A model generated the notes under the pieces. It saw only the letters and a list, made by a program, of their open reading frames with translations. It ran no database searches and was not told the origin of the DNA. 64,000 nt of DNA from Sulfuricurvum sp. Its GTDB lineage: Bacteria; Campylobacterota; Campylobacteria; Campylobacterales; Sulfurimonadaceae. A program made the position numbers and the translations under genes. Shown here one piece after another: positions 950 through 52,130 of the stretch. Position 1 is the first letter of the stretch. The number at the start of each line of letters is the position of its first letter. The stretch spans positions 1 to 64,000 of the forward strand of contig JAUYUB010000020.1 in the NCBI GenBank assembly GCA_030692765.1, given 5' to 3'.

Positions 950-2003
950 AACAATTTTAGGCAACAGCGATTTTGCCGAATTTTTACGAGGGAAGAAGGC
1001 AACATTTTTTCTCAGTCTCAGCAATACCGATACTGCTAAAATAGAGGGGATTACCCAAGCAGGAATTCCGGGGATGATCCACCTAACTCCGACGCTGGAT
1101 GCAGAGTTTCTCTGTACCGGAGAAGTACGAAGTCTCAAAAATATCGCTACAACGCCAAAAGGGGTTCCAACCCCAGGACTCATCACCCGTGCCGCTCATA
1201 TGCTTCACCCGTTTAGCGCCCTTGCTTTACTTGATCTTGGTTTGGAAATCAAACCCAAAATAGACTATTTTCCTCTTTATGGTTTTGGTCTTGACCCCAG
1301 CGGTTCGATCGATACGGGTGCGAACATTGATGCTGTGGAACTCTTTGAAAAAGGGGTGGAATTCGCAGAAGAGTATATTTGCCGCAGTGACTATATAATC
1401 TTGGGAGAATCGGTTCCCTCTGGTACAACTACTGCCCTTGCAACCGCGTTAGCATTGGGATATAGCGCCCGTGATAAATTCAGCAGCAGTTTCAAAAATG
1501 CCCCAAGCAGCATGAAGGAGAGCGTTGTTGATACGGCTCTTTCATGCTGTGGCGAAGGTGATGATCTGTTTGAAAAGCTCTCCCGCGTCAGTGATAACAT
1601 GCTCATTTTCAATGCAGGGTTTGTTTTGGGTCTGCTAAAACGCAAGATTACCACCGTCCTAGCAGGCGGGACACAGATGGCGGCACTGCTTTTGGTGATT
1701 AATTCAATCCTCAAACACACCAACCAAACCATTAATAGCCATAATCTCGCACTGTGTACGACCAAGTGGGTCTACGAAGATCCCAATTCGGATATCAAAG
1801 GGCTGCTGGAAATGGTCGATTTTCCGATCAATGCCTACTACGCCGACTTTGATTTTTCCCTCTCGTCCCATCCAGCTCTCAAACTCTACGACGAGGGTGA
1901 GGCCAAAGAGGGGGTCGGTGCAGGAGCAGCGCTTATGTACGCCTGCCTCAACGGTATCACCAAAGAGCAAATCACCCGTAAAGTGGAGAGCTTTTTGGGA
2001 TGA
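939..2003 (+). CDS. cobT: Nicotinate-nucleotide:dimethylbenzimidazole phosphoribosyltransferase, CobT-like (TIGR00303 type)
   Basis: 354 residues. It belongs to the divergent CobT branch found in archaea, cyanobacteria and Campylobacterota rather than the Salmonella-type branch. It activates the lower ligand base to alpha-ribazole phosphate. Visible marks are a glycine-rich SGTTTALATALALG segment (near 161), an LAGGTQMAA motif (near 240), and a C-terminal DEGEAKEGVGAGAA segment whose EGVGAGA resembles the catalytic Glu region of CobT. Its position directly after bluB supports the role. The stop overlaps cobU by 4 bases. Some databases call this family a hypothetical UPF protein; I rely on context for the function. 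Confidence 0.82.
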   Translation: MTIKTILGNSDFAEFLRGKKATFFLSLSNTDTAKIEGITQAGIPGMIHLTPTLDAEFLCTGEVRSLKNIATTPKGVPTPGLITRAAHMLHPFSALALLDLGLEIKPKIDYFPLYGFGLDPSGSIDTGANIDAVELFEKGVEFAEEYICRSDYIILGESVPSGTTTALATALALGYSARDKFSSSFKNAPSSMKESVVDTALSCCGEGDDLFEKLSRVSDNMLIFNAGFVLGLLKRKITTVLAGGTQMAALLLVINSILKHTNQTINSHNLALCTTKWVYEDPNSDIKGLLEMVDFPINAYYADFDFSLSSHPALKLYDEGEAKEGVGAGAALMYACLNGITKEQITRKVESFLG

Positions 2004-2491
2004 AAATACTCTATTTCGGAGGGCAAAAATCGGGTAAAAGTTCTCTCTCGGAACGTCATGCCAAAGAGCTCTCAACTCATCAACCCTACTATCTCGCGAC
2101 ATACGATAACCGTTTCGGCGACAGTGAAATGCAAAACCGCATCGAAAAACACCGAGATACCCGAAAAGAAGATTTTATAACCATCGAAGAGAGCCGTGAC
2201 CTTGCCTCTGTCCTTCAATCCGAGCATACGTATCTCATCGACTGCATCTCCATGTGGCTTCTCAATCGGATCGAAGAGGATGAAGCTGTTTTGATCCATG
2301 CTATCGAAGAGCTCGGAAACATCGATGCTAACATCGTGTTTGTCCTCAACGACGTAAGCAGCGGTGTTATCCCCATCGATGCAATAAGCCGCCGCTATGT
2401 CGACCTCAGCGGTCTTATCGGGCAAAAACTCGCTGCTATCTGCGATGAAGTCTACGAAGTTAAACTGGGACTTCGGATTCGCCTCAAATGA
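2000..2491 (+). CDS. cobU: Adenosylcobinamide kinase / adenosylcobinamide-phosphate guanylyltransferase
   Basis: 163 residues, slightly short of the usual ~175-180. P-loop GGQKSGKS at residues 7-14, then RIEKHRDTR with His51 at the position of the guanylylated histidine of CobU, followed by a conserved IEE. The enzyme phosphorylates adenosylcobinamide and transfers GMP to give AdoCbi-GDP for CobS. The C-terminal segment VDLSGLIGQKLA matches the family NQxxA region loosely. ATGA overlaps at both ends place it firmly within the operon. Confidence 0.9.
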   Translation: MKILYFGGQKSGKSSLSERHAKELSTHQPYYLATYDNRFGDSEMQNRIEKHRDTRKEDFITIEESRDLASVLQSEHTYLIDCISMWLLNRIEEDEAVLIHAIEELGNIDANIVFVLNDVSSGVIPIDAISRRYVDLSGLIGQKLAAICDEVYEVKLGLRIRLK

Positions 2492-3486
2492 ACCTCTTTG
2501 AACACGGCGGGGATGTGAATGCGTTTGCTACACACTGCGGTTGCACCCCCCAAGAGGTCATTGATCTCTCCAGCAATATCAACTTCATCACCCCGTCGGT
2601 CGATTTTGGTACCGTAACCCTCAACAGCTATCCTGACTATGAAGTGCTAACACAAACGTTAGCCGATTATTACAACGTGCACTCTGATGAATTGGAACTT
2701 TTTAACGGAGGCAGTTCGGCGATCTTTTCGCTGATGCGATTTTTCGATCAGCCAACCTGTACCATCTACTCTCCCGCCTATCTGGAGTACAAAAAGGCGG
2801 CCCTAGCGTATGGCAAAAAACTGAACCTCATCAACCGTTTGGAGAACATACATACAAAGATTTCCGAAAACTCGCTCGTTGTCTTTGTCAACCCTTCCAC
2901 TCCTGATGGACATTACTATGAGATGGATACGCTGATGCGTGAGTGGATGGCAAAAAATTGCACCATCCTCATCGATGAATCGTTTTTGGAGTTTTGCGAC
3001 GGAGCATCGGTAACCAAATATCTCCAAACCTACGACAAACTCTATGTTTTAAAATCACAAACCAAATTTTACGGATGCGCAGGGGTGAGGGTCGGAATCG
3101 TCCTCTCCACACGCGAAAATATCCGTGCACTCAAAGCCAATGAGCCGCTTTGGAAAATTTCGGCACTTGACAGCCATTTTCTGATCAGCGCATTGGCTGA
3201 CGAACCGTTTCGTGCGCAATCGTATGCACTGAACATGGAAGCGAAAGGGTATCTAAAAGTCCTCCTCGACAATTCTCCTATATTTGAACGGGTATTGGAT
3301 AGTGATGCGAACTTTTTTCTTGTACGGCTCGCTTCGATCTCTACACGGGAGTTTCAGGAGAAGCTTTTGCCACACCGCATTATGGTGAGGGATTGTTCTA
3401 ATTTTGATTTTTTGGATGAGCGGTATGTGCGTATTGCGGTGAAAAGTGTTTCGGACTTAAAATGGTTTGAGAGGGCACTAAATTGA
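2488..3486 (+). CDS. cobD: L-threonine-O-3-phosphate decarboxylase-like aminotransferase
   Basis: 332 residues, class I/II PLP-dependent fold. The opening FEHGGDVNAFATHCGCTPQE and LSSNINF are typical of the CobD/CobC branch related to histidinol-phosphate aminotransferase. The PLP lysine is K193 in SQTKFYG, and the cofactor Asp sits in the LIDESFLEF segment. It should make (R)-1-amino-2-propanol phosphate for attachment to the corrin by CbiB. The partner gene cbiB would normally follow closely; here it is 2 kb downstream, behind an AT-rich cassette. Confusion with HisC is unlikely given the operon. Confidence 0.87.
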   Translation: MNLFEHGGDVNAFATHCGCTPQEVIDLSSNINFITPSVDFGTVTLNSYPDYEVLTQTLADYYNVHSDELELFNGGSSAIFSLMRFFDQPTCTIYSPAYLEYKKAALAYGKKLNLINRLENIHTKISENSLVVFVNPSTPDGHYYEMDTLMREWMAKNCTILIDESFLEFCDGASVTKYLQTYDKLYVLKSQTKFYGCAGVRVGIVLSTRENIRALKANEPLWKISALDSHFLISALADEPFRAQSYALNMEAKGYLKVLLDNSPIFERVLDSDANFFLVRLASISTREFQEKLLPHRIMVRDCSNFDFLDERYVRIAVKSVSDLKWFERALN

Positions 3487-3513
3487 TTTTCATAGTGCTG
3501 TAAAATCGACTAT

Positions 3514-3542
3514 TTGACATAAAGAAAAAGTATATTTATCAT
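3514..3542 (+). promoter_or_regulatory. Probable promoter of the AT-rich cassette
   Basis: TTGACA at 3514-3519 and TATCAT at 3537-3542 are separated by 17 bases, an almost ideal sigma-70 arrangement. It lies in the 102-base gap after cobD, and an AGAGGT ribosome site precedes the ATG at 3589. The cassette can therefore be expressed independently of the B12 operon. Read directly from sequence; not tested. Confidence 0.6.
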
Positions 3543-3588
3543 TTATGTGTTAAAATCATTTAAAAGCAATAAAAAAGAGGTAATTTGA

Positions 3589-4395
3589 ATGAAGAATATT
3601 ATTCTTCAAAATAGTAATAACGCCATTGAAAAAGTCGCGTTTATTTTTGTCTTATCAGCACAAATAAATGATATTGTTATTAAAAATGTCATTACTAATT
3701 ATCAAAATACTCCTGATATGATTGCTAAACTGCCAAGATGTCAACCACAGAACATGATTAGTTTTCAAATTGGACCAATGGCAGAGCAACAGCCACATAT
3801 ACAGTCTCCAATGATGAATGGAGTCATATTTGACACTTTATTACCCGATGGAAGACAAAAATGGTTTGTTAATTTGTCAAATAATTTTTTAACTATTGGA
3901 TGTAGTGCCTATACGAGATGGCCTGAAATCTGGGCTACAGCAAAAGAGTATATAGATTTTTTTATGCCCGTACTAGAGGGCAATAGCATTCAGGAAATTG
4001 GAATAGAATACATTGATGAGTTCGGAATTTCCGATATTTCACAAGATTGGAAAAAAGAATTATTCAGAGAAGGAAATGATTTCATTCCAAACCATATATG
4101 GTCTAAAGATGATTTTTGGCACCTTCATCAAGGATATTTTTTAAATCATGAGCATAAAATTTTAAATAATATTAACATGAATTATTTTTTAGATGAAAAA
4201 ATGAGTCCAAAAGTCGTTATACAAACGCATCACAAAACAACTTGTTCAGATTTAATTCCTATTACTAACAACACATCGGATGTAATAAGTGCAATTGAAC
4301 CAATAATTGAACAAAATCATCTTTTAAATAAAGAAGTAATGTGTAATTTATTATCATCAGAAATTTGTAAAAGAATTAACTTGGAGTGTAAGTAA
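3589..4395 (+). CDS. TIGR04255-like protein, unknown function (cassette gene 1)
   Basis: 268 residues, no signal peptide or membrane segment. The central part (DGRQKWFVNLSNNFLTIGC, then SAYTRWPE and IQEIGIEYIDEFGI) resembles the sporadically distributed TIGR04255 family, usually ~260 residues and of unknown function. That match is from memory of the family pattern and should be checked. The gene is strikingly AT-rich and Asn/Ile/Lys-rich compared with the B12 genes on both sides, which suggests horizontal acquisition. Its stop overlaps the next start (TAATG), so genes 1 and 2 are translationally coupled. Confidence 0.6.
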   Translation: MKNIILQNSNNAIEKVAFIFVLSAQINDIVIKNVITNYQNTPDMIAKLPRCQPQNMISFQIGPMAEQQPHIQSPMMNGVIFDTLLPDGRQKWFVNLSNNFLTIGCSAYTRWPEIWATAKEYIDFFMPVLEGNSIQEIGIEYIDEFGISDISQDWKKELFREGNDFIPNHIWSKDDFWHLHQGYFLNHEHKILNNINMNYFLDEKMSPKVVIQTHHKTTCSDLIPITNNTSDVISAIEPIIEQNHLLNKEVMCNLLSSEICKRINLECK

Positions 4396-4925
4396 TGCTT
4401 AGTGCTACAGTAATTTCAACAGTAATGGCTTTATCCGCACCAACTACACAAATAAGTATACCTACTTTCCCATCAGTAGGCATCGAAGCGCAGACAAAAA
4501 GCACGAGTACATCATTCAAGCCAATATATTCCCTATCAAAATCTGAAGGTCAAATAATATTTAGCCCTGAATATATGAATGCCATAAACACCCTGCATGG
4601 CTATTTATCTTTACAGTATGATTGGGATGGTTACGGTGGAAAAGCACCGACTTTTGACCTCATTAGTGCAGGTGAAAGATTATTATTTACATTTCAAAAT
4701 TATGCATTTAAAGTGCCAAAACTAATGCTATCAGGCTCAGGTGAGATTGGTTTTTATTGGGAAAATGGGAATGAATATGCTGAAATAACTTGTGATAATT
4801 CAGAATCATACACATTTGTGTATATGAAGGACAAAATTCCTTTTATCGAAGAAGATAAAGCTATACACAGTGGTTTTTCAAGTGATTTAACTACAAGAAT
4901 TTCTAATATTAATAGAAGTGCATAG
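4395..4925 (+). CDS. Unknown protein with WDGYGG motif (cassette gene 2)
   Basis: 176 residues. The N-terminus (to ~residue 50) is Ser/Thr-rich and hydrophobic in places but is not a convincing signal peptide. The recognisable core is LQYDWDGYGGKAPTF near residue 75, followed by PKLMLSGSGEIGFYWENG and a beta-rich stretch. Short bacterial proteins with a WDGYG...P motif followed by GEI-x-F/L-x-W recur next to unrelated uncharacterised genes; no function is known to me. GGAG precedes the ATG by 8 bases. Base composition matches genes 1 and 3. Confidence 0.6.
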   Translation: MLSATVISTVMALSAPTTQISIPTFPSVGIEAQTKSTSTSFKPIYSLSKSEGQIIFSPEYMNAINTLHGYLSLQYDWDGYGGKAPTFDLISAGERLLFTFQNYAFKVPKLMLSGSGEIGFYWENGNEYAEITCDNSESYTFVYMKDKIPFIEEDKAIHSGFSSDLTTRISNINRSA

Positions 4926-4936
4926 GGATTTATACC

Positions 4937-5458
4937 TTGGAATCTGCAAAGGATTTTTTTAATAACCCAGATTTATCTTCTACGAAATGTCATTACCTGA
5001 CTGAAAATTATGAACAATCATTAGAATGGGAAAAAGAAAGTGTTAGTTCATACTCTTGCGGTACGGTGAAAGATGATGAAATATTAGCACGGAATATTTA
5101 TTCACCACACGATTATGATAAAACTACTGGAAAATTAAATAGTTTAGCTTTTGACAATATACTCAACAGAGGGCTTTCAGTTTTACGATTTGACGATACA
5201 GGACACGATGAAGTAGTTAATATCGGTCAAGGTAAAAAAAAAGCTACACATGAATATCATGGTTACATTACTGTACAAACAAAATCTATACGTGAATGTT
5301 TTATAGATACTAAAAGAGCTATGGCAGTATATGATACTGCATTAGCTCACCTGCTTATCCATGCTGATATTTGCAGTATTAGTGTGACGACAAAGGGAAA
5401 TAAAAATTTATTACGACTTTTCTTGAGAGAAACATTTTCTGAACTTGTTTCTGTTTGA
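4937..5458 (+). CDS. Unknown protein (cassette gene 3)
   Basis: 173 residues from a TTG start at 4937, chosen because AGGGA lies 8 bases upstream and the frame opens 11 bases after gene 2. No membrane segment. Visible segments are ARNIYSPHDYDKTTGKLNS and FDNILNRGLSVLRFDD, then a C-terminal half rich in His, Cys and charged residues (VYDTALAHLLIHADICSIS). I do not recognise a named family. It completes the AT-rich cassette; cbiB resumes 26 bases later with the composition of the B12 operon. Confidence 0.55.
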   Translation: MESAKDFFNNPDLSSTKCHYLTENYEQSLEWEKESVSSYSCGTVKDDEILARNIYSPHDYDKTTGKLNSLAFDNILNRGLSVLRFDDTGHDEVVNIGQGKKKATHEYHGYITVQTKSIRECFIDTKRAMAVYDTALAHLLIHADICSISVTTKGNKNLLRLFLRETFSELVSV

Positions 5459-5484
5459 TAAAATTAGTATTTTCCATCTGAACC

Positions 5485-6348
5485 ATGTTCTTTAGCATAG
5501 CCCTCATCGCCTACATCACCGACCGCATTTTCGGCGAGTTCAAATTTATCCGTCACCCTGTAGTGCTCATGGGGGATTTAATCACCGCGTTTGAGAAGCG
5601 GTTTTATCATGATAGCATCGTGCGCGGATTCTGGCTCGTGTTTTGGTTGCTAGCGTGTCTGTTAGCACTCGTCTACCCTGTTAGTCTAATCAATAATCCA
5701 TGGGTATTAGGAGTTATCGCCTCGACGGGGATCGCTGGAAAGATGCTCTATGAAAGTGTCCAAAACGTCCTGCATGAGCCACAATCGATCCGATTTCTTG
5801 TGAGCCGCGACACTGAAAATCTAAGCAAAAGTGAAATCAATAAAGCCGCCATCGAGACCTACGCCGAAAATCTCAGCGATGGAGTAATCGCCCCGCTGTT
5901 TTATCTTCTGATAGGAGGGTTAGTCGGGCTGTTTGTCTATAAAGCAATCAATACCCTCGACTCGATGGTGGGGTATAGGAACGAAAAATACGAAAAATTT
6001 GGCAAAGTGAGCGCACGATTGGACGATGTACTCAATTACATCCCCTCCCGTATCACGGCGGTGCTCATAGTGATCCTGTTTGGCAAATTCACCTCTCTCA
6101 AAAAAGTATGGCAATATGGGGCGCAGCATGAGAGTCCCAATGCGGGATATCCGATTTCGGCCATGGCTCTTTCACTCGATATATCGCTGGGGGGACCGAC
6201 ACCGTATTTTGGCAGTGTCAAAAACAAGCCCTATTTCGGAGAGGGAAAGCGGGAGATTACCGCTGGGGATGTTCGCAGCGCATTAACCCTTCAGTGGAAA
6301 CTCGATATCCTGACGATACTAGTACTAACGGCGGGAGTTATGGCATGA
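5485..6348 (+). CDS. cbiB: Adenosylcobinamide-phosphate synthase, integral membrane
   Basis: 287 residues with several transmembrane stretches (near 45-80, 135-155, 190-205 and the C-terminus). CbiB signatures are ETYAENLSDGVIAPLFY, KAINTLDSMVGYRNEKYEKFG and ESPNAGYPISAMA. It joins aminopropanol (phosphate) to the adenosylcobyric acid side chain. No ribosome site of any strength precedes the ATG; before insertion of the cassette it was probably coupled to cobD. A TAAAAT box at 5459-5464, overlapping the end of cassette gene 3, could act as a -10 element. The stop overlaps cobQ by 4 bases. Confidence 0.92.
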   Translation: MFFSIALIAYITDRIFGEFKFIRHPVVLMGDLITAFEKRFYHDSIVRGFWLVFWLLACLLALVYPVSLINNPWVLGVIASTGIAGKMLYESVQNVLHEPQSIRFLVSRDTENLSKSEINKAAIETYAENLSDGVIAPLFYLLIGGLVGLFVYKAINTLDSMVGYRNEKYEKFGKVSARLDDVLNYIPSRITAVLIVILFGKFTSLKKVWQYGAQHESPNAGYPISAMALSLDISLGGPTPYFGSVKNKPYFGEGKREITAGDVRSALTLQWKLDILTILVLTAGVMA

Positions 6349-7685
6349 AATCGATCTCTATTTTCGGCACCTCCTCGGATGCAGGAAAATCGACCCTGAC
6401 GTTTGTTATAGGCCGATTGTTGCAAGAGCGGGGAATCAACGTCGGAGTCTTCAAAGCCCAAAACGTCTCCAATAACTCCCGTGTATGCGATGACGGGAGC
6501 GAAATCGCCATCGCCCAGTATTTTCAGGCGGAGGTTTTAGGGATACCCACAAGCTACCACCTCAATCCAGTACTGCTCAAATCTGGGTCAGGAAACAACG
6601 CCTCGCTGATCCTCAAAGGGCAAGTTGTCACCGATAAAGACGTTCGCGAGTACTATCGTGATCTCGATACCCTCAAACCCTCCGTCGATGAGTGTTTTGA
6701 ATATCTGCAAAAACAGTATGAGTGCGTTGTATGTGAAGGGGCGGGAAGTCCCGTGGAGCTAAACCTGATGGACAAAGACCTCTCCAATATCTACATTGCG
6801 CAAAAATATGGCACGAAGATCATCCTCGTCGCCGATATCGAAAAAGGAGGCGTGTTTGCCTCGATATGGGGGGTGTATAATCTCCTCCCAAAATCCTTAA
6901 GAGACAATGTCATCGGCGTCATCGTCAACAAATTTCGCGGTGATCGAACCCTCTTTGATGAAGGGGTGACTATCATCGAAGAGAAATTCGGTATTCCCGT
7001 ACTGGGCGTCCTCCCCTATCTCCCCCTGAACCTCGGATTTGAAGATTCCCAAAGTCTCAAAAACTTTGTCCAAAACAAACCTGATCCTGCGAAAAAGATC
7101 GGGATCATCAACTACCCCACGATGAGCAACTACAACGATTTCGAACCGCTCATCGCCGATGAGGCAATTTTCGTCGAATTCATCACGTCCAATGTTTCGC
7201 TGGAGAGTTTCGACCTCATCATCCTCCCCGGAAGCAAACTGGTGATCAAAGATTTGCAATGGCTGAAAAAAACGGGGCTGTTCGAAGCACTCAAAGAGCG
7301 GCAAAAAGAGATATTAGGGATTTGCGGCGGTTATCAGATGATGTTTGACGCCATTATCGATGACGAGTGTGTCGAAACCTCTGTACCAAGCCGCGAAGAA
7401 GGACTCGGATTTATCGATGATATTATCATCTTTCAAAAAGAAAAAGTGCTCCAAAAAGGGGAATATACTCTTTTCGGTAAGATCATACAGGGATTTGAAA
7501 TCCATAACGGGGTGAGCAAAAAATATCCGCTTTTCTATGAAAAAGGTCCTATCAAAGGGACATTTGTTCACGGCATTTTTGAGGATGAGGCGTTTGAAGC
7601 TTATAAAAAAACGACCATCGACAGCTTTATCGCTACGATGAGAGATGAAATTAATATGGAGAGGATTTTAAAACATGTCCTATAA
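6345..7685 (+). CDS. cobQ: Adenosylcobyric acid synthase (glutamine-hydrolysing)
   Basis: 446 residues from the ATG at 6345 (ATGA overlap with cbiB); an in-frame upstream ATG at 6294 lies inside cbiB and is not needed. The N-terminal dethiobiotin-synthetase-like domain has GTSSDAGKST at residues 8-17 and FKAQNVSNNS near 36. The C-terminal class I glutamine amidotransferase domain has Cys327 in GICGGYQMMF and His409 in FVHGIF. It amidates four corrin side chains. The protein is a little shorter than many homologues (~480-500). Confidence 0.94.
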   Translation: MKSISIFGTSSDAGKSTLTFVIGRLLQERGINVGVFKAQNVSNNSRVCDDGSEIAIAQYFQAEVLGIPTSYHLNPVLLKSGSGNNASLILKGQVVTDKDVREYYRDLDTLKPSVDECFEYLQKQYECVVCEGAGSPVELNLMDKDLSNIYIAQKYGTKIILVADIEKGGVFASIWGVYNLLPKSLRDNVIGVIVNKFRGDRTLFDEGVTIIEEKFGIPVLGVLPYLPLNLGFEDSQSLKNFVQNKPDPAKKIGIINYPTMSNYNDFEPLIADEAIFVEFITSNVSLESFDLIILPGSKLVIKDLQWLKKTGLFEALKERQKEILGICGGYQMMFDAIIDDECVETSVPSREEGLGFIDDIIIFQKEKVLQKGEYTLFGKIIQGFEIHNGVSKKYPLFYEKGPIKGTFVHGIFEDEAFEAYKKTTIDSFIATMRDEINMERILKHVL

Positions 7686-8097
7686 AAAATGGTTCGATGA
7701 ACATGCCCAAAAACACAAAGAAATTATGGAAAAGCTTACTCATCTGAGTGACCAAGAGGTGATCGAGTATTTTCGATTTGAAAACATGGTGCAAAACGAA
7801 AAAGAGTTTTGCCCTCTCTATGCGGACAATAAAAAATGTCATGACACCGAAGAACTCAATTGCTACCTATGCGCCTGCCCGAACTTCCGCTTTAACGACA
7901 AAGGGTTCAAGCAAGAAGAGGAAAAGACTCTCTTTAGCACCTGTTCAATCGAGAGCCCTGACGGTGACCGCTACATCAGCGAATCTGCCATCCATCAAAA
8001 TTGTGCGGGATGTCTCGTCCCTCACAGAGAGAGCTACATCAAAAAAGTGTTCGACCGCAATTGGCTGGCCATCATGAAAGAAGTGCCGTGTGAATAA
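7675..8097 (+). CDS. Cysteine-rich small protein within the B12 operon, unknown function
   Basis: 140 residues with nine cysteines in clusters: FCPLY, KCHD, LNCYLCACPNF, STCSIE, QNCAGC and VPCE. The spacing C-x2-C-x-C plus N-C-x2-C suggests an iron-sulfur cluster or zinc site. The rest is charged and soluble, with no export signal. GGAGAGG precedes the ATG, which overlaps the cobQ end by 11 bases; the gene also overlaps cobS, so it is embedded in the late cobalamin steps. Its function is unknown to me; a redox or cobalt/corrinoid-handling role is a guess from context. Confidence 0.75.
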   Translation: MSYKKWFDEHAQKHKEIMEKLTHLSDQEVIEYFRFENMVQNEKEFCPLYADNKKCHDTEELNCYLCACPNFRFNDKGFKQEEEKTLFSTCSIESPDGDRYISESAIHQNCAGCLVPHRESYIKKVFDRNWLAIMKEVPCE

Positions 8098-45165: not shown

Positions 45166-46980
45166 TCAATGCAACAAGAGAGCCTTTTCATCCCCTCTTT
45201 TTTGCAAATGAATATTCAACACTTGTCCTTTGGGAAAGACACTGTATTCCTGACGCGTGTTTGGATCAATGACCTGTACGCGGTTATTTCCGTAATAAGT
45301 ACCATGATGGGTAATGACTCCATGCAAATCAGCCTCATGCAATGTCTTCAGTATCTCACGTAAAACATGCAAGGCATTTTCTTCTTCTACTACTTTTGCA
45401 CTTAGTAACTGAAGTCTTCCTGCTTCGGCTCTGTATTGCTTCATGCTTAGGACATCTATCTCCAGCGGTTCTCTTCCATTGTTTTTTGCATCCGCAATAC
45501 GCTGTTGAAATCGTTTCATCTGCACACTTTTTTCTTTAAAGGCAAACTGTTTCATCCCTAATTGTTTTTTATCGTCTTGCAGGATATTTTCTTTGTCTAT
45601 AATTTTAGCCGTCACTTCTGCTATTTGTTCATGATAGACCCTGAAATGCGCAGGGTCAATAGTCATCGTATTGCCTTCACCCTCGATATTATCAACCTCA
45701 ATGCTTTCAAGAGCAATAATTTTGCCATGTGCAAAGAGAGTTTCCACATAGACTTTACGTGCAATTATTTCGCCTCCGAGCATTTTTTTGATTCGAACGA
45801 TATCTCCCTCAATCGTCCCCCCCTCAAGAACCTCGATATTGGCCTCATTTGCCTTGAGGTCACCGCGATGAAGTTTGATATTTGCAATTCCACTCACATC
45901 AATGGTTGATTTTTTATGGGTCTGTGCGTCGATACTCAGATCGCATGCCTGGATCTTCGTATTTTCCCCTACTGTTCCGCTGATATCAACCGTTTTGACG
46001 TTAATACGTAAACCGGATCCTACGGCATCTTCGCCTACATTCTTTTGTTCCACCGTCAGTGTTATGTCCTTGTCCGAGCCAGGAATAACAGACCCTGTCT
46101 TCACGCTGACCGCTTCAAGGTGTATATCCTGTGCAATGGTAAAAACTCCCTTGTCCCTCTTGACAAATCCTGATGCCAAGGAAAAATAACTAATCCCCTG
46201 TTCACCCTGAGTACTGCGGATAGTCGCATCATCGATCTTCATAACTCCGGCATACTTGATCGTCGGTTCGGGAACGATAATAGGAGCTCCATCAAGTCCA
46301 CGCCCATTGCGACCTTTTTTAGGAAAAATGTACTCCATGATAAAATCACCCGGCAGTGCCCCATGAATATGAGTGGGATCTTCTGGATCTTCATCCTGCT
46401 TTTTGTAATGCAAAATAACTCTGTCGTCTATGGTATTGATCGGGGGGAAGTAACTCCCTATCGGTAGTGAGTAGGGTTCTGTAAGGGGGCCTTGCTTTTG
46501 TATCTTTGCCAAAAGACGCAATATCTCTTTATCCAACTGCTCATCATCTGTCCCAATCAAATAGCCAAGTCGAAGCTTTTTTTTATTGATGACGGTTTTA
46601 ATCCACTCTTGTACCCCTTTTTTCAAGGGAATAGTTGATAAAGGGTCAATAATTGCCGTCAAAATCCCTTTAGCCTTACTAATCCCGACAGAAAAACGCA
46701 GATCCAGATATAAGATTGGAACCGCAGAGCGTATTGTAATTTGGTATTGCTGGCTGAGTAAATACTCATCGCAGTAAAGGTCTTCTTGTGTGATTTGTGC
46801 ATACACATCACCGCTTGGCATAACATGCCACTCTTCGTCTGAGGCTCTTTTGTAATAGGTCTCATATGAGAGCAGATCAAAATCAACCTCATCCATGCCA
46901 AGCTTGCGATCAGTCGCAGCTAAGCGAAGATCTTCTTTGACATTAGCAGAGCCTTTAGTAACGGGAGTGAATTCTGCCAT
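45166..46980 (-). CDS. DUF342 (FapA) family protein
   Basis: 604 residues, cytoplasmic, no membrane segment. A charged N-terminal part with FAP-like PIGSYFPPINTID and GALPGDFIMEYIFPKKGRNGRGLDG is followed by a parallel beta-helix (repeated hydrophobic turns near 290-430, e.g. VDISGTVGENTKIQACDLSI). A long coiled coil (450-540) and a small C-terminal domain (VQVIDPNTRQEYSVFPKGQ) complete it. This architecture is DUF342/FapA, linked in Vibrio to flagellar pole or carbon-source signaling; its role here is unknown. Two 14-base direct repeats lie upstream. Confidence 0.82.
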   Translation of the reverse strand: MAEFTPVTKGSANVKEDLRLAATDRKLGMDEVDFDLLSYETYYKRASDEEWHVMPSGDVYAQITQEDLYCDEYLLSQQYQITIRSAVPILYLDLRFSVGISKAKGILTAIIDPLSTIPLKKGVQEWIKTVINKKKLRLGYLIGTDDEQLDKEILRLLAKIQKQGPLTEPYSLPIGSYFPPINTIDDRVILHYKKQDEDPEDPTHIHGALPGDFIMEYIFPKKGRNGRGLDGAPIIVPEPTIKYAGVMKIDDATIRSTQGEQGISYFSLASGFVKRDKGVFTIAQDIHLEAVSVKTGSVIPGSDKDITLTVEQKNVGEDAVGSGLRINVKTVDISGTVGENTKIQACDLSIDAQTHKKSTIDVSGIANIKLHRGDLKANEANIEVLEGGTIEGDIVRIKKMLGGEIIARKVYVETLFAHGKIIALESIEVDNIEGEGNTMTIDPAHFRVYHEQIAEVTAKIIDKENILQDDKKQLGMKQFAFKEKSVQMKRFQQRIADAKNNGREPLEIDVLSMKQYRAEAGRLQLLSAKVVEEENALHVLREILKTLHEADLHGVITHHGTYYGNNRVQVIDPNTRQEYSVFPKGQVLNIHLQKRGDEKALLLH

Positions 46981-46990
46981 GTTCAGATTA

Positions 46991-47048
46991 TGTTGACCGC
47001 TATAAGCATAAAAAATTCTCCCATTGACTAAATTTGTTGACCGCTTTA
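46991..47048. repeat. Two direct repeats upstream of the DUF342 gene
   Basis: TGTTGACCGCTATA at 46991-47004 and TGTTGACCGCTTTA at 47035-47048 differ at one base and are 44 bases apart, about four helical turns. They sit in the 128-base gap between the DUF342 start and the ArsR-type gene end, so they may be regulator sites for DUF342. No other copies were noticed in the window. Confidence 0.5.
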
Positions 47049-47108
47049 CAGATATTAGTTTTTTGAATACCTTAGAATAATATCTTTTACACGCTTAAAA
47101 TAAGTTTA

Positions 47109-47477
47109 TCATTTAGCTAATTGACTAAACGTATTTTCCTGATGCTTCTCCTCATACGAGGCAATCAAATCACCGAGGCTTTCACATATCTTTTTACTTC
47201 TTCTAATATCGGCAGAAACAAATATTTTTTTTCCCTCTTTGTGCGTCTTGATAAGTCCCGCTTGTTTTAAGATGTCAAGATGCTTCGAAATCGTTGGGAG
47301 TGTAAAATCGAACATTGAGGCGACATCCGTAATGCACAACCCCTCATTGCCTCCATGAGGCTGACCGCTTTCCATCAAGATTTTCTCATAGATCTGAAGG
47401 CGTGTTACATGACCCAAAGCTTTATAAACTTCTGCCCGTTCTTCCAAAGAGATAGCTCTTCTTTCTATAAATTCCAT
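47109..47477 (-). CDS. ArsR-family transcriptional repressor
   Basis: 122 residues. Winged helix-turn-helix with YKALGHVTRLQIYEKIL and FTLPTISKHLDILKQAGLIK. The metal-binding ELCVC motif of ArsR is not present; instead there is Cys48 (EGLCITDV) and Cys98 (KKICES), roughly the positions of the two cysteines used by the persulfide sensors SqrR/BigR. Divergent from a DsrE-like gene. A sulfide/persulfide-sensing role is possible; this is inference. Confidence 0.85.
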   Translation of the reverse strand: MEFIERRAISLEERAEVYKALGHVTRLQIYEKILMESGQPHGGNEGLCITDVASMFDFTLPTISKHLDILKQAGLIKTHKEGKKIFVSADIRRSKKICESLGDLIASYEEKHQENTFSQLAK

Positions 47478-47498
47478 GCGAGGCTGCCTTTTTTATTG

Positions 47499-47508
47499 TA
47501 CGTACATA
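47499..47508. promoter_or_regulatory. Palindrome at the ArsR gene start
   Basis: TGTACGTACA is a perfect 10-base palindrome 22 bases upstream of the ArsR-type gene. The position fits an autoregulatory operator. The 191-base divergent region also holds TATAAT-like sequences before the DsrE-like gene. Weak evidence. Confidence 0.3.
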
Positions 47509-47668
47509 AGCATAGACATTAGTCGATTAAAAAAGCATTAATAGGTTTACGTGTTGGGAATAGGGTAAAGCGTGATCTTATGGAGTATTTTTTCAATCAA
47601 ATAGTCTGATACAAAGTTGGTTTTTATATAATACGCCACTATAAAGTAATAATAACACAGGAAACTCC

Positions 47669-48016
47669 TTGGCAAAAGAAAATCTATTAATCGTCATCTC
47701 AACAGACAATGTCGACTCCATACTCAAGTTTCCTCTTTTATACGGCGGTGTTTCCATCCCAAGAGGATATTGGAAAAGAGTACATGTCATGTTTTGGGGT
47801 GCCTCAATCTTATGCGCGATGAACGATGAACGAATACGGGAAAAAGTTCAAACGATGATCACTGATGGTGCAGAGTTTAGTTCCTGCATTGTATGTGCCC
47901 AAGATTATAATGCCGTAGACTCGTTGCAAGCCATCGGTATTGAATGCAACCATACCGGAGAGCTGCTGACAACTGCATTGCAAAATGATGCTATTTGGTC
48001 TGTTATGACCATATAA
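47669..48016 (+). CDS. DsrE/DsrF-like small sulfur-relay protein
   Basis: 115 residues from a TTG start with CAGGAAA about 6 bases upstream. An alpha/beta fold with LLIVISTDNVDSILKFPLLYGG and VHVMFWGAS is followed by cysteines Cys49, Cys73 and Cys76 (SSCIVCAQDY) and Cys93 (IECNHTGELL). The pattern resembles DsrE-like proteins that carry sulfur as persulfide. Divergent from the ArsR-type regulator, suggesting control by reactive sulfur. Weak similarity; the family call is tentative. Confidence 0.65.
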   Translation: MAKENLLIVISTDNVDSILKFPLLYGGVSIPRGYWKRVHVMFWGASILCAMNDERIREKVQTMITDGAEFSSCIVCAQDYNAVDSLQAIGIECNHTGELLTTALQNDAIWSVMTI

Positions 48017-48145
48017 AATCTATGTCCCATGCTTAGTGATTTAATAAAGACTATAACGGATGAATCAGCAACTTACAAAACCCTTTGAGCTATATCAACT
48101 AAAAGAGGTTGTAAGCAAATATTTAACTAAAAAAACAGGAGTCAA

Positions 48146-49108
48146 ATGAGTAAATTCCCGAACTTAGCGTTATATCATGAACATTTTGATGTTGTAAAAG
48201 ATCATATTACCACGATGTGGATGTCTCAGATAGCAGCTAAACAACTATTGAAAAAATACAAAATTCCGGAAGAATTCTTTAGAAAATACTTTGCTAAGCG
48301 GATCATTGATTTCAATTTTGACGTATTGACCGGAGACCATCCCCTTGGAAACTGCCCCATTATTGGAGCGATGCTCGTTTATTTTGAGAAAAAGAATCTT
48401 GCACTTGAAGATATTTTTATTTTATGCAGCAATCTAAAGACATCCATGGTCGAATATGCACACAACAACGCAATACTCACGGTGGAAACCATTCACGAGA
48501 TTTCATCGCTTATGGACAACAATTTACATGGCGTAATACGTGATTATGTAGACAACCACTTAAACTTGCCAGCACTACAGTTAAGCTGCCCTATAGCTGA
48601 TAACAATTTAATCAATCATGGGGATTTCTCACGTATAGGACAAATCAACACCACATCTGCATTCTATTATCTTCAAGAAATCGAAGTAGATTATGAATTA
48701 TTAGACGAATTAAATGAGATTGAAGAAGAAACACTATCTTCTATTGAATTGACTGAAAATATGAATCAGGCAACGTATAATAATATTCTTGCGCTATTTA
48801 ACGACTATTCAAAAGTATTAAGCAAATTAGTTGAGTTCAACCAAATAACCTTTTCTCTCCGAACGCTTATTGATCTATTGACCAATACAAGTCCGGAACA
48901 AATCGGTGACGATAATATCAGTTCAATATCTATTTATATCAAAGCGATTTTAAGTGATCTTTCGATGTGGCGAAAAAGTGTTTTTTATGATCAAACTGCA
49001 GAAGATATTCATTATCTTGATAAAACCCTTCTTAGCTCGATAACACAATTGCAAATTATGCTTTCAGAAGATGATGATACGGAAACATATGAGATTGAAT
49101 TCTTTTAA
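48146..49108 (+). CDS. Unrecognised 320-residue protein
   Basis: Soluble, mostly helical. The N-terminal ~140 residues (LALYHEHFDVVKDHITTMWM, FRKYFAKRIIDFNFDVLTGD, NCPIIGAMLVYFEKKNL) form one apparent domain with several His and aromatic residues. An acidic linker near 185-205 (YELLDELNEIEEETL) and a second helical domain follow, ending in an acidic tail (EDDDTETYEIEF). No enzyme or DNA-binding motif seen. ACAGGAG precedes the ATG. More AT-rich than neighbouring housekeeping genes. A sensory or scaffold role is a guess. Confidence 0.6.
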   Translation: MSKFPNLALYHEHFDVVKDHITTMWMSQIAAKQLLKKYKIPEEFFRKYFAKRIIDFNFDVLTGDHPLGNCPIIGAMLVYFEKKNLALEDIFILCSNLKTSMVEYAHNNAILTVETIHEISSLMDNNLHGVIRDYVDNHLNLPALQLSCPIADNNLINHGDFSRIGQINTTSAFYYLQEIEVDYELLDELNEIEEETLSSIELTENMNQATYNNILALFNDYSKVLSKLVEFNQITFSLRTLIDLLTNTSPEQIGDDNISSISIYIKAILSDLSMWRKSVFYDQTAEDIHYLDKTLLSSITQLQIMLSEDDDTETYEIEFF

Positions 49109-49183
49109 TATAGCTGACATGCTTTGGGCACAGTAGGATAATTATCTTTAGGGAGTCCACGTACAGAGGGTTCTATAGGGATA

Positions 49184-49271
49184 TGGCGGACAGCTAGGGG
49201 TTCGAACCCTAGAAAGGTTGCCCTTTACACGCGTTCCAGGCGTGCGCCTTCGACCACTCGGCCAGCTGTCC
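49184..49271 (-). tRNA. tRNA-Ser (anticodon GGA)
   Basis: Minus-strand cloverleaf with 7-base acceptor GGACAGC/GCTGTCC, discriminator G and an encoded CCA at 49186-49184. D-arm starts GCCGAGTGGTCGAAGGC. Anticodon stem CACGC/GCGTG has loop CTGGAAC (anticodon GGA). A long variable arm typical of class II serine tRNAs and a T-arm AGGGTTCGAACCCT complete it. Length 88 including CCA. Possible -10 TATAGT on the minus strand near 49287-49292. Confidence 0.95.
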
Positions 49272-49278
49272 ATTTATT

Positions 49279-49318
49279 GTGAGGACGAAACTATACACTT
49301 TCTTAGTAAAATCCTCAC
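49279..49318. repeat. Inverted repeat upstream of tRNA-Ser
   Basis: GTGAGGA at 49279-49285 and TCCTCAC at 49312-49318, 26 bases apart, flank the probable tRNA promoter. On the plus strand it is followed by a T-rich run, but no plus-strand gene ends nearby except one 170 bases upstream. Role unclear. Confidence 0.3.
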
Positions 49319-49385
49319 TTAATTTTTTCTATTTTAGACAATCAAATCGTAATACCATGGACTTGATTCATCAAAAGTTAATTAG

Positions 49386-52130
49386 TCAGTGATTGGTTTT
49401 ATCCCTTATGAAAGCTTGAAACTCACTTGCTGGCAATGGTTTACTGTAATAATACCCCTGTACTTCATCACACCCTTGCCCCCGAAGATATTCGAGCTGC
49501 TCGATGGTTTCTACCCCTTCGGCTATCGTTTTCAAACCCAGAGAGTGCGCCATATTAATCACGGCGCTGACGATGGCTTTATCATCAGCATCGGTACTGA
49601 TATCACGGACAAAAGATTGATCAATTTTGAGCTTATAAATTTTAAACTTCTTGAGATAGTTCAAAGACGAGTATCCTGTGCCAAAATCATCAATCGACAT
49701 ACGGATTCCCCGCTCATGAAAATTTCTCATAATATTGATTGCGGTGCCTGGATCATGCATCGCCATACTTTCGGTCAGTTCCAGTTCGAGATATCTGGGA
49801 GGGACATCGTATTCATGTAAAATGCGCGATACAAGATTCGGCAAATCGTGATGGCGAAATTGAACCGTAGAGAGATTGACCGACATGACGATCGGGGGCA
49901 GGCTGCTATCCATCCACTCTCTGACCTGTGCTACGGCGGTGCGCAATACCCACTCCCCTATCGGTAAAATAAGCCCATTTTCTTCCGCTGCGGGGATAAA
50001 TTCTACAGGTGAAATACTGCCTAGCTCGGGATTATTCCAGCGGATCAGGGCTTCGGCTCCAGTAATCTTTTCGTTTTCGATAGAGAGTTGGGGCTGGTAA
50101 ACTAAATGAAATTCTTTGTTTTTCAAAGCATCACGCAATGCGGTGTTGAGTTGAAGATTCCAGAACGATTTGATTTGCATCTCCGTTGTAAAGAAGCGAT
50201 ATCCATTGCGACCCTCTTCCTTGGCACTGTACATCGCCGTATCTGCGTTTTTGGAGAGGGTCTCGACATCTTTTCCATCGTATGGGTAGATAGCAATACC
50301 GATAGAGGCTGATATGTTTAATTTGTATTGCTCAATCATGTACGGTTCTCGGATTGATTCAAGAAGCTTTTGAACCACACTTTCAACGCCGTGCGCATCC
50401 GTGTTCGAGAGGATAAAAATAAATTCATCTCCACCCATCCGCGCTACGATATCAACATCACGTATAAGAGATTTGAACCGTTTGGCAGATTCCACCAACA
50501 TCCCATCACCAATAGTGTGCCCCAGTGTATCATTGATCTCTTTGAACTTGTCGAGATCAAGAAACATGACGGCAAACGAAGTCTTGTTCCGCTTCGAATG
50601 ACTCAGGATGTACTTAAAAAAATTGTCGAGTTGCCCGCGGTTGGGTAATCCTGTCAATGTGTCAAAATTAGCCAGATGATAGATACGCTCTTCAATACGT
50701 TTTTTCTCAGTAATGTCTTCTTCGACCGCCACGTAATGGGTTATTTTTCCGTTGGCCTGAAAAATAGGGGAGATGTGTACCGACTGGACGTATTCCGTTT
50801 TGTCCTTTCCTAAATTGATAAACTCACCGTGCCAGTTCAACCCGCGACGTAAAGTGGCCCACATATCTTCATACGTACCTCTCGGTGTTTTACCCGATTT
50901 GAAAATTTTCGGATTTTTGCCGATCACTTCACTCTTGAAATACCCGCTCGTTGTAAAAAAATGGGAATTGGCATACTCGATGGTGCCATCAAGATCCGTA
51001 ATAATAATGGAGGTTGGACTTTGCTCTACCGCTTGAGAGAGCTTGCGCAGTTGATTCTCGCTCTCAACTCTCTGTGTAATCGACAATAGAACGCCGGCCA
51101 TCCATAGAGGTTTTTTATGTACATCATATGAAATGACCCGTCCGCGAGTAAGCACCCAAATCCACTCCCCGCTCTTGTGACGCATCCGCATATCACACTC
51201 ATAATAATCGCATTCACCCCTAAAATGGAGCTCCATTATCGTATTCGCCTGTGCAAAATCTTCAGGATGAGTCAGTTTTTCCCACGTAGTGTAATGGACC
51301 GGCGAAAGCTCCTCGAGTGTGTATCCCAATATTTGAGCCCACTCTTCATTCACCACATTTTCTCCGCTTTGTACATTCCACTCCCAGGTACCCGCTCCCG
51401 TTCCCCACAGAATATTATAGAGGTGCTGTTGTTCGTTTTTTAAATTTTCTAAAAGGCTTTCTTTCTCTGTTTCCAGTTTTTTATTTATTTTTCGCAAACG
51501 CCATGTCAAAAGCAAAACACCGACTGCGACAACCCCCAACAGGCGTAAAAAAAGGCTAAACGCATCCTTTTGTAAAACCTTGTTGATCTCATCGATCCGA
51601 ATATCGGCAGAAACCATATAGGAGTGCCCGCCTGGACTTTTAAGAGGGATAAAAACACTACGAAACGTTCCCCATTTATCGCTGTATTCATCAAAACTGA
51701 TACGACCGGTTTGAAAAGCATTTTTTAACGCTTCGCTGGCATCGTCATAATTGTCAAAATAGTGGGTTAAGTTTACCCCTGTTTTACGCTCCTCGTCGGT
51801 TGCACTGGAAGCCGTAAAGTAAATTTTACCCTCTTTCATAGTCATCGTATAGAGATACGCAACATTCAGACTTTCCGAAAGTTTGCTCAGGCGATCAATG
51901 TTTCGGGTGTGTTCGGCCTGACTTATCGAGCTAGCCGCAAGTGCTCGATCATGAAAATTGGGAGGGAGGATATGCAGTGTTGTTTTGGCAGAAGAAAGAA
52001 GCTTCTCGTCAATATGTTCGTAAAAAGTTTCTTTATGCTCTTGGTAGTCTAAATAGCTAAAGAGAGTCACTCCCAGTATTAATAGTACAAAGCTGCTAAT
52101 CACAAAATACTTATCAAACTGTTTGTTCAT
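49386..52130 (-). CDS. Membrane sensor PAS-PAS-GGDEF-EAL cyclic-di-GMP protein
   Basis: 914 residues. Two membrane helices (near 9-25 and 190-208) bracket the same periplasmic sensor type as in the protein at 20846 (FHDRAL, GKIYFTASSATD, DKWGTFRS, KSPGGHSY). A PAS-PAC pair (YNILWGTGAGTWEWNVQSG; SPTSIIITDLDGTIEYANS) follows, then GGDEF with intact MGGDEF and EAL with GAEALIRW, LELTESMAM, IDDFGTGYSSL and KIDQSF. The EAL site appears complete. Relative to the paralogue it has ~250 extra residues holding the PAS domains. Own promoter with GCTATAAT on the minus strand. Confidence 0.9.
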   Translation of the reverse strand: MNKQFDKYFVISSFVLLILGVTLFSYLDYQEHKETFYEHIDEKLLSSAKTTLHILPPNFHDRALAASSISQAEHTRNIDRLSKLSESLNVAYLYTMTMKEGKIYFTASSATDEERKTGVNLTHYFDNYDDASEALKNAFQTGRISFDEYSDKWGTFRSVFIPLKSPGGHSYMVSADIRIDEINKVLQKDAFSLFLRLLGVVAVGVLLLTWRLRKINKKLETEKESLLENLKNEQQHLYNILWGTGAGTWEWNVQSGENVVNEEWAQILGYTLEELSPVHYTTWEKLTHPEDFAQANTIMELHFRGECDYYECDMRMRHKSGEWIWVLTRGRVISYDVHKKPLWMAGVLLSITQRVESENQLRKLSQAVEQSPTSIIITDLDGTIEYANSHFFTTSGYFKSEVIGKNPKIFKSGKTPRGTYEDMWATLRRGLNWHGEFINLGKDKTEYVQSVHISPIFQANGKITHYVAVEEDITEKKRIEERIYHLANFDTLTGLPNRGQLDNFFKYILSHSKRNKTSFAVMFLDLDKFKEINDTLGHTIGDGMLVESAKRFKSLIRDVDIVARMGGDEFIFILSNTDAHGVESVVQKLLESIREPYMIEQYKLNISASIGIAIYPYDGKDVETLSKNADTAMYSAKEEGRNGYRFFTTEMQIKSFWNLQLNTALRDALKNKEFHLVYQPQLSIENEKITGAEALIRWNNPELGSISPVEFIPAAEENGLILPIGEWVLRTAVAQVREWMDSSLPPIVMSVNLSTVQFRHHDLPNLVSRILHEYDVPPRYLELELTESMAMHDPGTAINIMRNFHERGIRMSIDDFGTGYSSLNYLKKFKIYKLKIDQSFVRDISTDADDKAIVSAVINMAHSLGLKTIAEGVETIEQLEYLRGQGCDEVQGYYYSKPLPASEFQAFIRDKTNH

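Follow-up and report, generated by a model that had tools for sequence, protein, structure and literature searches.

A mobile TIGR04255-headed three-gene cassette in the B12 gene cluster of Sulfuricurvum, with interchangeable partner genes and a possible role in phage defence

Introduction

Why do three AT-rich genes stand in the middle of a B12 gene cluster, exactly between cobD and cbiB, and what might they do? We addressed this question for a stretch of 64,000 nucleotides from Sulfuricurvum sp. (assembly GCA_030692765.1, contig JAUYUB010000020.1, positions 1 to 64,000 of the forward strand), which is called the window in the following. An initial annotation, made from the letters of the window, had described three co-oriented genes of 268, 176 and 173 residues at this position and regarded them as a mobile accessory system; open reading frames (ORFs), sizes, order and position were all found as described. 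Here we report that the cassette is a recent insertion, that it moves as a trio and that its first gene stays constant across a wider family, in which the second and third genes come as matched pairs. Taken as a whole, we give about an even chance to the reading that the cassette is a mobile, modular three-component module of toxin type which likely acts against phages, by abortive infection or by exclusion of competing phages. Of its parts, the mobile toxin-type module is quite probable and a defence role is likely.

The genes of the locus are:
2488-3486, forward strand: cobD, host gene 5' of the cassette, its last codons altered by the insertion
3480-5484, forward strand: inserted cassette, as defined by comparison with empty sites in genomes of the same genus; G+C 0.31
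3589-4395, forward strand: gene 1, 268 residues, TIGR04255 family; proposed constant, sensor- or chaperone-like control protein
4395-4925, forward strand: gene 2, 176 residues; proposed type-specific, antitoxin-like neutraliser
4937-5458, forward strand: gene 3, 173 residues, TTG start; proposed effector or toxin with a predicted ADP-ribosyltransferase (ART)-like fold
5485-6348, forward strand: cbiB, host gene 3' of the cassette

Results and discussion

The cassette is a recent insertion into the B12 gene cluster

An empty cobD-cbiB junction, which the initial annotation had proposed to look for in close relatives, was indeed found. Among 12 other genomes of the genus with a CbiB match, the ends of cobD and cbiB overlap without a cassette in 10, cobD was not found beside cbiB in the other two, and the cassette is present at that site in none of the 12. 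The nearest relative (G031, with a CbiB that is 91% identical; G and L numbers are our handles for genomes and loci) can be aligned to the window left and right of the cassette and has no intervening sequence. The left junction of the insert reads ..GGCACT/AAATTGA, with cobD before the slash, and the right one ..GAACC/ATGTTC, with cbiB after it. For the flanking proteins the best NCBIfam matches were TIGR01140 for CobD (E=2.4e-66, below the cut-off of that model) and TIGR00380 for CbiB (E=1.7e-60, above the cut-off).

The much lower G+C content, which had been judged by eye, was confirmed by counting: with 0.31, the cassette is the lowest 2-kb stretch of the window (mean 0.437, standard deviation 0.029), and the G+C content at third codon positions is 0.18-0.23 in its genes versus 0.51-0.56 in the neighbouring cob genes. 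The position and common orientation within the operon would also fit accessory genes for B12 metabolism or its regulation that belong to the cob operon, but none of the 12 same-genus genomes that have cbiB contains the genes at this site, all other copies lie elsewhere, including on phages, and the base composition is foreign. Such a function is extremely improbable, and we rejected the cassette as a part of B12 metabolism because of the empty sites and the copies elsewhere. A transposon or integron unit was rejected as well: the cassette is without a recombinase, and at the window junctions no terminal repeat was noticed and no clear target-site duplication was recognised.

The coupling of genes 1 and 2 by TAATG, noted initially, is present, with the stop codon TAA of gene 1 at 4393-4395 and the ATG of gene 2 at 4395. 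The near-ideal promoter ascribed to the cassette is present as a sequence, but was not established as a promoter. Two features bear on this:
3514-3542, forward strand: sigma-70-like promoter candidate TTGACA-N17-TATCAT, its -35 part outside the block shared with G426
3533-3588, forward strand: upstream block kept in the G426 copy (blastn)
In the AT-rich stretch 9 promoter-like sites were found, compared to 12 expected in shuffled sequences. Since this count is not above that of the shuffles and only the -10 side lies within the shared block, which begins at about 3533, we regard TTGACA-N17-TATCAT as a mere candidate.

The window contains a second AT-rich stretch (46800-49600, G+C about 0.36), with ORFs for an ArsR-like regulator and for proteins of 115 and 320 residues.

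The three genes move together

Copies with 84% DNA identity were found in three metagenome-assembled genomes from two families of the order, namely a member of the Campylobacterales (G402), a Sulfurimonas (G426) and a Sulfurovum (G354). The similarity covers the genes only, extended in one comparison by some 55 bp of upstream sequence, and the copies are located at unrelated sites with unrelated flanks, showing recent transfer. Diverged copies in the same order are present in G029 (same genus, different site), G220, G405 and a prophage of G304. Among the 397 genomes of the phylum that were sampled, gene 3 was found in 8, gene 2 in 7 of these 8 and an adjoining gene 1 in 7 of 7; in G262, which has gene 3 without gene 2, the locus is cut by the contig end. 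A viral contig (L011) carries the gene 2-gene 3 pair and is likewise cut by the contig end, and a Pantoea prophage contains the full trio of the ART type; its gene 1 is annotated as TIGR04255, and its gene 3 matches our gene 3 profile (E=1.6e-7). The cassette is thus mobile as a trio, as had been proposed: the three families occur together and in fixed order in unrelated genomes, with copies on prophages and phages.

The pattern scan of genome contigs returned the three close copies only, because its patterns must be strict. Plasmid tblastn searches with window genes 1, 2 and 3 gave no result, and window gene 1 gave none in the phage tblastn search and the viral-contig scan. A match on a Marinobacter plasmid is a fragment only.

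In the G426 copy, and in this copy only, 87 bp from the 3' end of the cation-ATPase gene that precedes the cassette recur downstream of it as a direct repeat with 82% identity (L020, G426:C4). This might reflect a partial duplication that came in together with the cassette or was brought about by it.

A constant first gene with interchangeable partners

Gene 1 had been said to resemble the TIGR04255 family, and it matches this NCBIfam model with 45 bits, above the curated cut-off of 30 bits; all 16 gene 1 proteins of our alignment A9 (window gene 1 and 15 homologues) match it too. TIGR04255 genes that looked solitary at first also head three-gene operons, and by our own count, with near-identical phage records taken once, the family heads a three-gene operon at 24 of 24 loci with complete flanks. 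These loci span Campylobacterota, Bacteroidota and Pseudomonadota and include temperate phages and prophages. Outside the phylum or on phages, the same arrangement was seen in Phocaeicola, the Pseudomonas phages Dobby and VW-6S, two Campylobacter phages and the Sulfurimonas phage SNW-1.

Genes 2 and 3 form matched pairs, of which at least four types, unrelated to one another, were seen. Within a type both families align (a few gene 2 pairs weakly), while between types neither BLASTP nor profile comparison showed similarity. Nine of the 24 loci are of the ART type, six of a HEPN-like type, six of a family with an SNSCDID motif and two of a further family, and one is without an assigned type. 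In the tree of gene 1 proteins, the ART-type members form one clade (100/100), so the control gene and the gene 2-gene 3 pair largely co-evolve. Two things go beyond what the initial annotation had proposed: gene 1 is the element kept throughout a broader family whose gene 2-gene 3 pairs are interchangeable, and gene 3 looks like an enzyme toxin.

In the HEPN-like type, a RLYYALYH-like motif was seen by eye in gene 3, but Pfam did not confirm HEPN. The SNSCDID/NTCDI family, with proteins of about 200 residues, provides the third gene at L065, L067, L073, L078, L085 and L086; it is common to Campylobacterota, Bacteroidota and Pseudomonas phages and had no Pfam match over the cut-off where tested. 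The gene 3 proteins of L064 (5798-6484) and L070 (3819-4523) belong to a family with the motif GLTCSTF/GLTCATF that by eye resembles NlpC/P60-type cysteine hydrolases, which Pfam did not confirm.

Gene 3 has a predicted ART-like fold

The AlphaFold2 model of gene 3 reached a predicted local distance difference test score (pLDDT) of 89.2 and a predicted template modelling score (pTM) of 0.87. Structural re-alignment gave VIA Z scores of 5.1 for Tpt1, 5.0 for AvrPphF ORF2, 4.9 for CC0527, 3.9 for SdeA and 3.5 for BECa, followed by the ART-like domain of lethal factor (3.0), Arr (2.8) and IcmQ (2.6). The best five and most of the twelve best-aligned entries are ART-fold proteins. A fold search in BFVD found an unnamed protein at best (E 0.009).

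Conservation was assessed with 8 sequences from two phyla and the viral contig, and points to the following positions:
5078-5080, forward strand: E48, invariant in 8/8 sequences
5090-5092, forward strand: R52, candidate NAD-site (nicotinamide adenine dinucleotide) residue, placed by the model in the first strand (residues 49-56), kept except in L011
5177-5188, forward strand: S81-x-x-R84, candidate active site on the second predicted strand, invariant in 8/8
5360-5362, forward strand: H142 of an H-A/S-D/E motif, candidate active site, invariant in 8/8

In the model, R52, S81, R84 and H142 appear on the strands where the ART fold keeps its NAD-binding residues. On fold evidence that is weak to moderate, an ADP-ribosyltransferase-like fold of gene 3 seems likely to us, while ART activity is unproven.

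Gene 2 carries an uncharged N-terminal tail

The WDGYGG motif that had been pointed out in gene 2 is present, and a second feature lies at its start:
4395-4454, forward strand: uncharged hydrophobic N-terminal tail of gene 2, MLSATVISTVMALSAPTTQI
4623-4640, forward strand: WDGYGG motif of gene 2, kept in alignment A5 except in the viral copy L011

Tails of this kind, lacking a transmembrane segment, were found in 16 of 21 gene 2 proteins and in three unrelated types, compared to 9% of background ORFs. Such a segment, which in some proteins has an AxA-like end, might also be read as a signal peptide or membrane anchor, so that genes 1 and 3 would act at the membrane, for example in phage exclusion or ligand handling. 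However, the segments are weak, with Kyte-Doolittle values below 1.6 in every 19-residue window. They often do not begin with the positive charge that signal peptides have, some types are without the segment, and no export features were seen in genes 1 and 3. An envelope system is therefore very unlikely.

The part of gene 2 around WDGYGG matches the candidate defence model PDC-M32A of PADLOC in 8 of 9 ART-type members (best E=1.3e-8); the gene 2 of the window itself matches it weakly (E=0.0048, about 75 of 375 positions). Pfam and PHROGs gave no match for genes 2 and 3.

Gene 1 and its predicted fold

The AlphaFold2 model of gene 1 (pLDDT 83.5, pTM 0.82) is built from two halves, both of which contain a sheet and one long helix. 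Its structural matches are weak and comprise helix-grip proteins (PYL, START) and TBP, which suggests a duplicated helix-grip/TBP-like fold. Given that PYL and START bind ligands and TBP binds DNA, gene 1 might recognise a phage or DNA ligand through the groove of such a fold and activate gene 3 directly, with gene 2 as an adaptor instead of an antitoxin. But the matches are all weak and mixed, and the matched gene 2-gene 3 pairs fit neutralisation equally well or better, which makes direct activation quite unlikely.

A SecB-like nature of gene 1 found no support, since the fold search did not list SecB, although absence from this list is not proof. Because SecB-like folds are not among the matches of gene 1, the analogy to a chaperone drawn below is a functional one only.

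Phages, prophages and defence neighbourhoods

Many copies of the module are located on phages and prophages. In the prophage of G304 (L010 6725-8644) an ART-type operon lies between the genes for the terminase large subunit and the portal protein, on the opposite strand, and a HEPN-like operon has the same location and orientation in a prophage of G244 (L069 4743-6228). In the Pantoea prophage the ART type is placed between lysis and terminase genes. The Sulfurimonas phage SNW-1 carries the HEPN-like type, whereas the third type adjoins the portal gene of the P2-type Pseudomonas phage Dobby, with the integrase on the other side, and the CI repressor gene of Pseudomonas phage VW-6S. Further mobile copies were found in the two Campylobacter phages, 3' of a tyrosine recombinase in the Phocaeicola element and adjoining an integrase in G513. 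In P2-like phages the region next to the portal gene (between gpA and gpQ) is a known defence hotspot (PMC9122126, PMC9519451).

The prophages of G304 and G244 are unrelated and their operon types differ, yet the operons occupy the same kind of place. In the Campylobacter phage PP935708, a gene that matches the candidate defence model PDC-M66A (L071 3662-4447, E=2.9e-14) adjoins the phage repressor and lies within a few positions of the TIGR04255 operon.

The initial annotation had asked whether the families cluster with defence genes, and this check, like the others that it proposed, came out in its favour. Prophages, phages and elements with an integrase carry copies, and an operon of a different type directly follows a type II restriction-modification system: at L064 (G209, 1655-7693), a type II methyltransferase, a restriction enzyme and the Vsr nuclease are followed by the TIGR04255 operon and a gene for 389 residues, and this locus is a small defence island. 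The G402 copy is followed by a PDC-S09 candidate protein. Most chromosomal copies, on the other hand, are not visibly in defence islands.

A plain addiction (toxin-antitoxin) module, which stabilises prophages and islands without a direct anti-phage function and uses gene 1 as an accessory folding factor, would also fit the toxin-like gene 3 and its matched partner, the gene overlap and the mobile distribution. The locations next to portal, terminase and CI repressor genes, which are favoured by superinfection-exclusion genes, are more typical of defence, and so is the large number of interchangeable effectors, although the two readings overlap. We consider a pure addiction module unlikely.

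Several observations weigh against the anti-phage toxin module that we prefer. The cassette is rare, occurring in about 2% of the genomes of the phylum, and of about 17 chromosomal loci in Campylobacterota only 2 are in prophages, 1 lies beside an integrase and 1 beside a restriction system, most being not visibly in defence islands. Collections of phages and plasmids oversample mobile elements by design, and because they favour such elements we do not claim a measured enrichment. Of the 21 gene 2 proteins, 5 have a charged tail or none at all. The ART-like matches of gene 3 score low (Z 5.1 at best, below the level that would be conclusive alone), Foldseek found nothing significant for gene 3, and Pfam has no match for it. 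Gene 1 has no PADLOC or Pfam match to SecB, which is also missing from its structural match list, whose silence is no proof.

A possible mechanism

In toxin-antitoxin-chaperone (TAC) systems, a chaperone guards the antitoxin until a phage protein pulls the chaperone away (CmdTAC, PMC11618068; PMC9519451). A constant first protein, a type-specific tailed second protein and a variable toxin-like third protein follow the same logic, and for this reason we propose a similar chain for the cassette. Gene 3 would be the effector, an ART-like enzyme that uses NAD to modify a target of the cell or of the virus. Gene 2 would be its dedicated neutraliser and hold gene 3, each type of gene 3 having its own type of gene 2, and gene 1 would be the constant control protein that binds and stabilises gene 2, perhaps via the N-terminal tail. 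When infection is sensed, gene 1 would let go of gene 2, and gene 3 would be freed. The insertion, the mobility of the fixed trio, the constancy of gene 1, the matched gene 2-gene 3 pairs and the copies on phages are established here, and the predicted folds of genes 3 and 1 and the tail of gene 2 have weaker support. Toxicity of gene 3, neutralisation by gene 2, the phage trigger and the defence role are all inferred. The TAC-like release step, which is drawn by analogy, is possible but rather doubtful.

In a more general view, TIGR04255 might be the hallmark of an undescribed and widespread class of three-component bacterial immune modules. A control protein other than SecB would there license many different neutraliser-toxin pairs and couple a single sensing device to exchangeable effectors, several of which would belong to as yet unrecognised enzyme families. 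We put the chance of this somewhat below even.

Comparison with known systems

With PADLOC 2.0.0 (2023), no component gave a strong full-length match, the only one being the partial match to PDC-M32A, and gene 1 and the tested gene 3 types are without a model. Sequence searches of the PDB gave no result. PDC-M32 is, like the cassette, also reported from prophages (PMC12429752). However, this system requires both PDC-M32A and PDC-M32B, genes 1 and 3 match neither, and no gene matches PDC-M32B; membership was rejected, since gene 2 matches PDC-M32A partially only. Gene 3 resembles Tpt1/KptA, AvrPphF ORF2, Arr and DUF952 in its predicted fold and in a conserved set of R, S..R and H on strands that seem to be equivalent, but sequence similarity to ART-fold proteins is not detectable and the structural scores are low.

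The NCBIfam definition of TIGR04255, a sporadic family, covers gene 1 alone and not the three-gene architecture with interchangeable partners. None of the papers searched was found to deal with TIGR04255 or its synonyms, and the three-gene module with swappable partners looks undescribed, as we found no published description; DefenseFinder and newer candidate lists lie outside this comparison, so a description under another name is possible. The family, so far labelled sporadic and of unknown function, thereby gains a concrete context: it heads a mobile module of three genes with swappable effectors that is carried by temperate phages and by bacteria of three phyla.

The closest likeness is to CmdTAC and other TAC systems, which also consist of three genes, use an ART-type toxin (CmdT) in one case, combine a constant third protein with different toxin-antitoxin pairs and have an anti-phage role (PMC11618068, PMC9519451). 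The third protein of TAC is SecB-like, whereas gene 1 belongs to TIGR04255 with a predicted helix-grip/TBP-like fold; the TAC antitoxin has a C-terminal chaperone-addiction extension, whereas the hydrophobic tail of gene 2 is N-terminal. The gene order differs as well, and genes 1-3 have no PADLOC sequence match to TAC components. Because no SecB-like protein was found and the tail is at the opposite end, we do not file the cassette as TAC. If the proposed mechanism is true, new toxin families could be found by inspecting the genes after TIGR04255, and the module would solve in a second, independent way the control problem that SecB-like chaperones solve in TAC.
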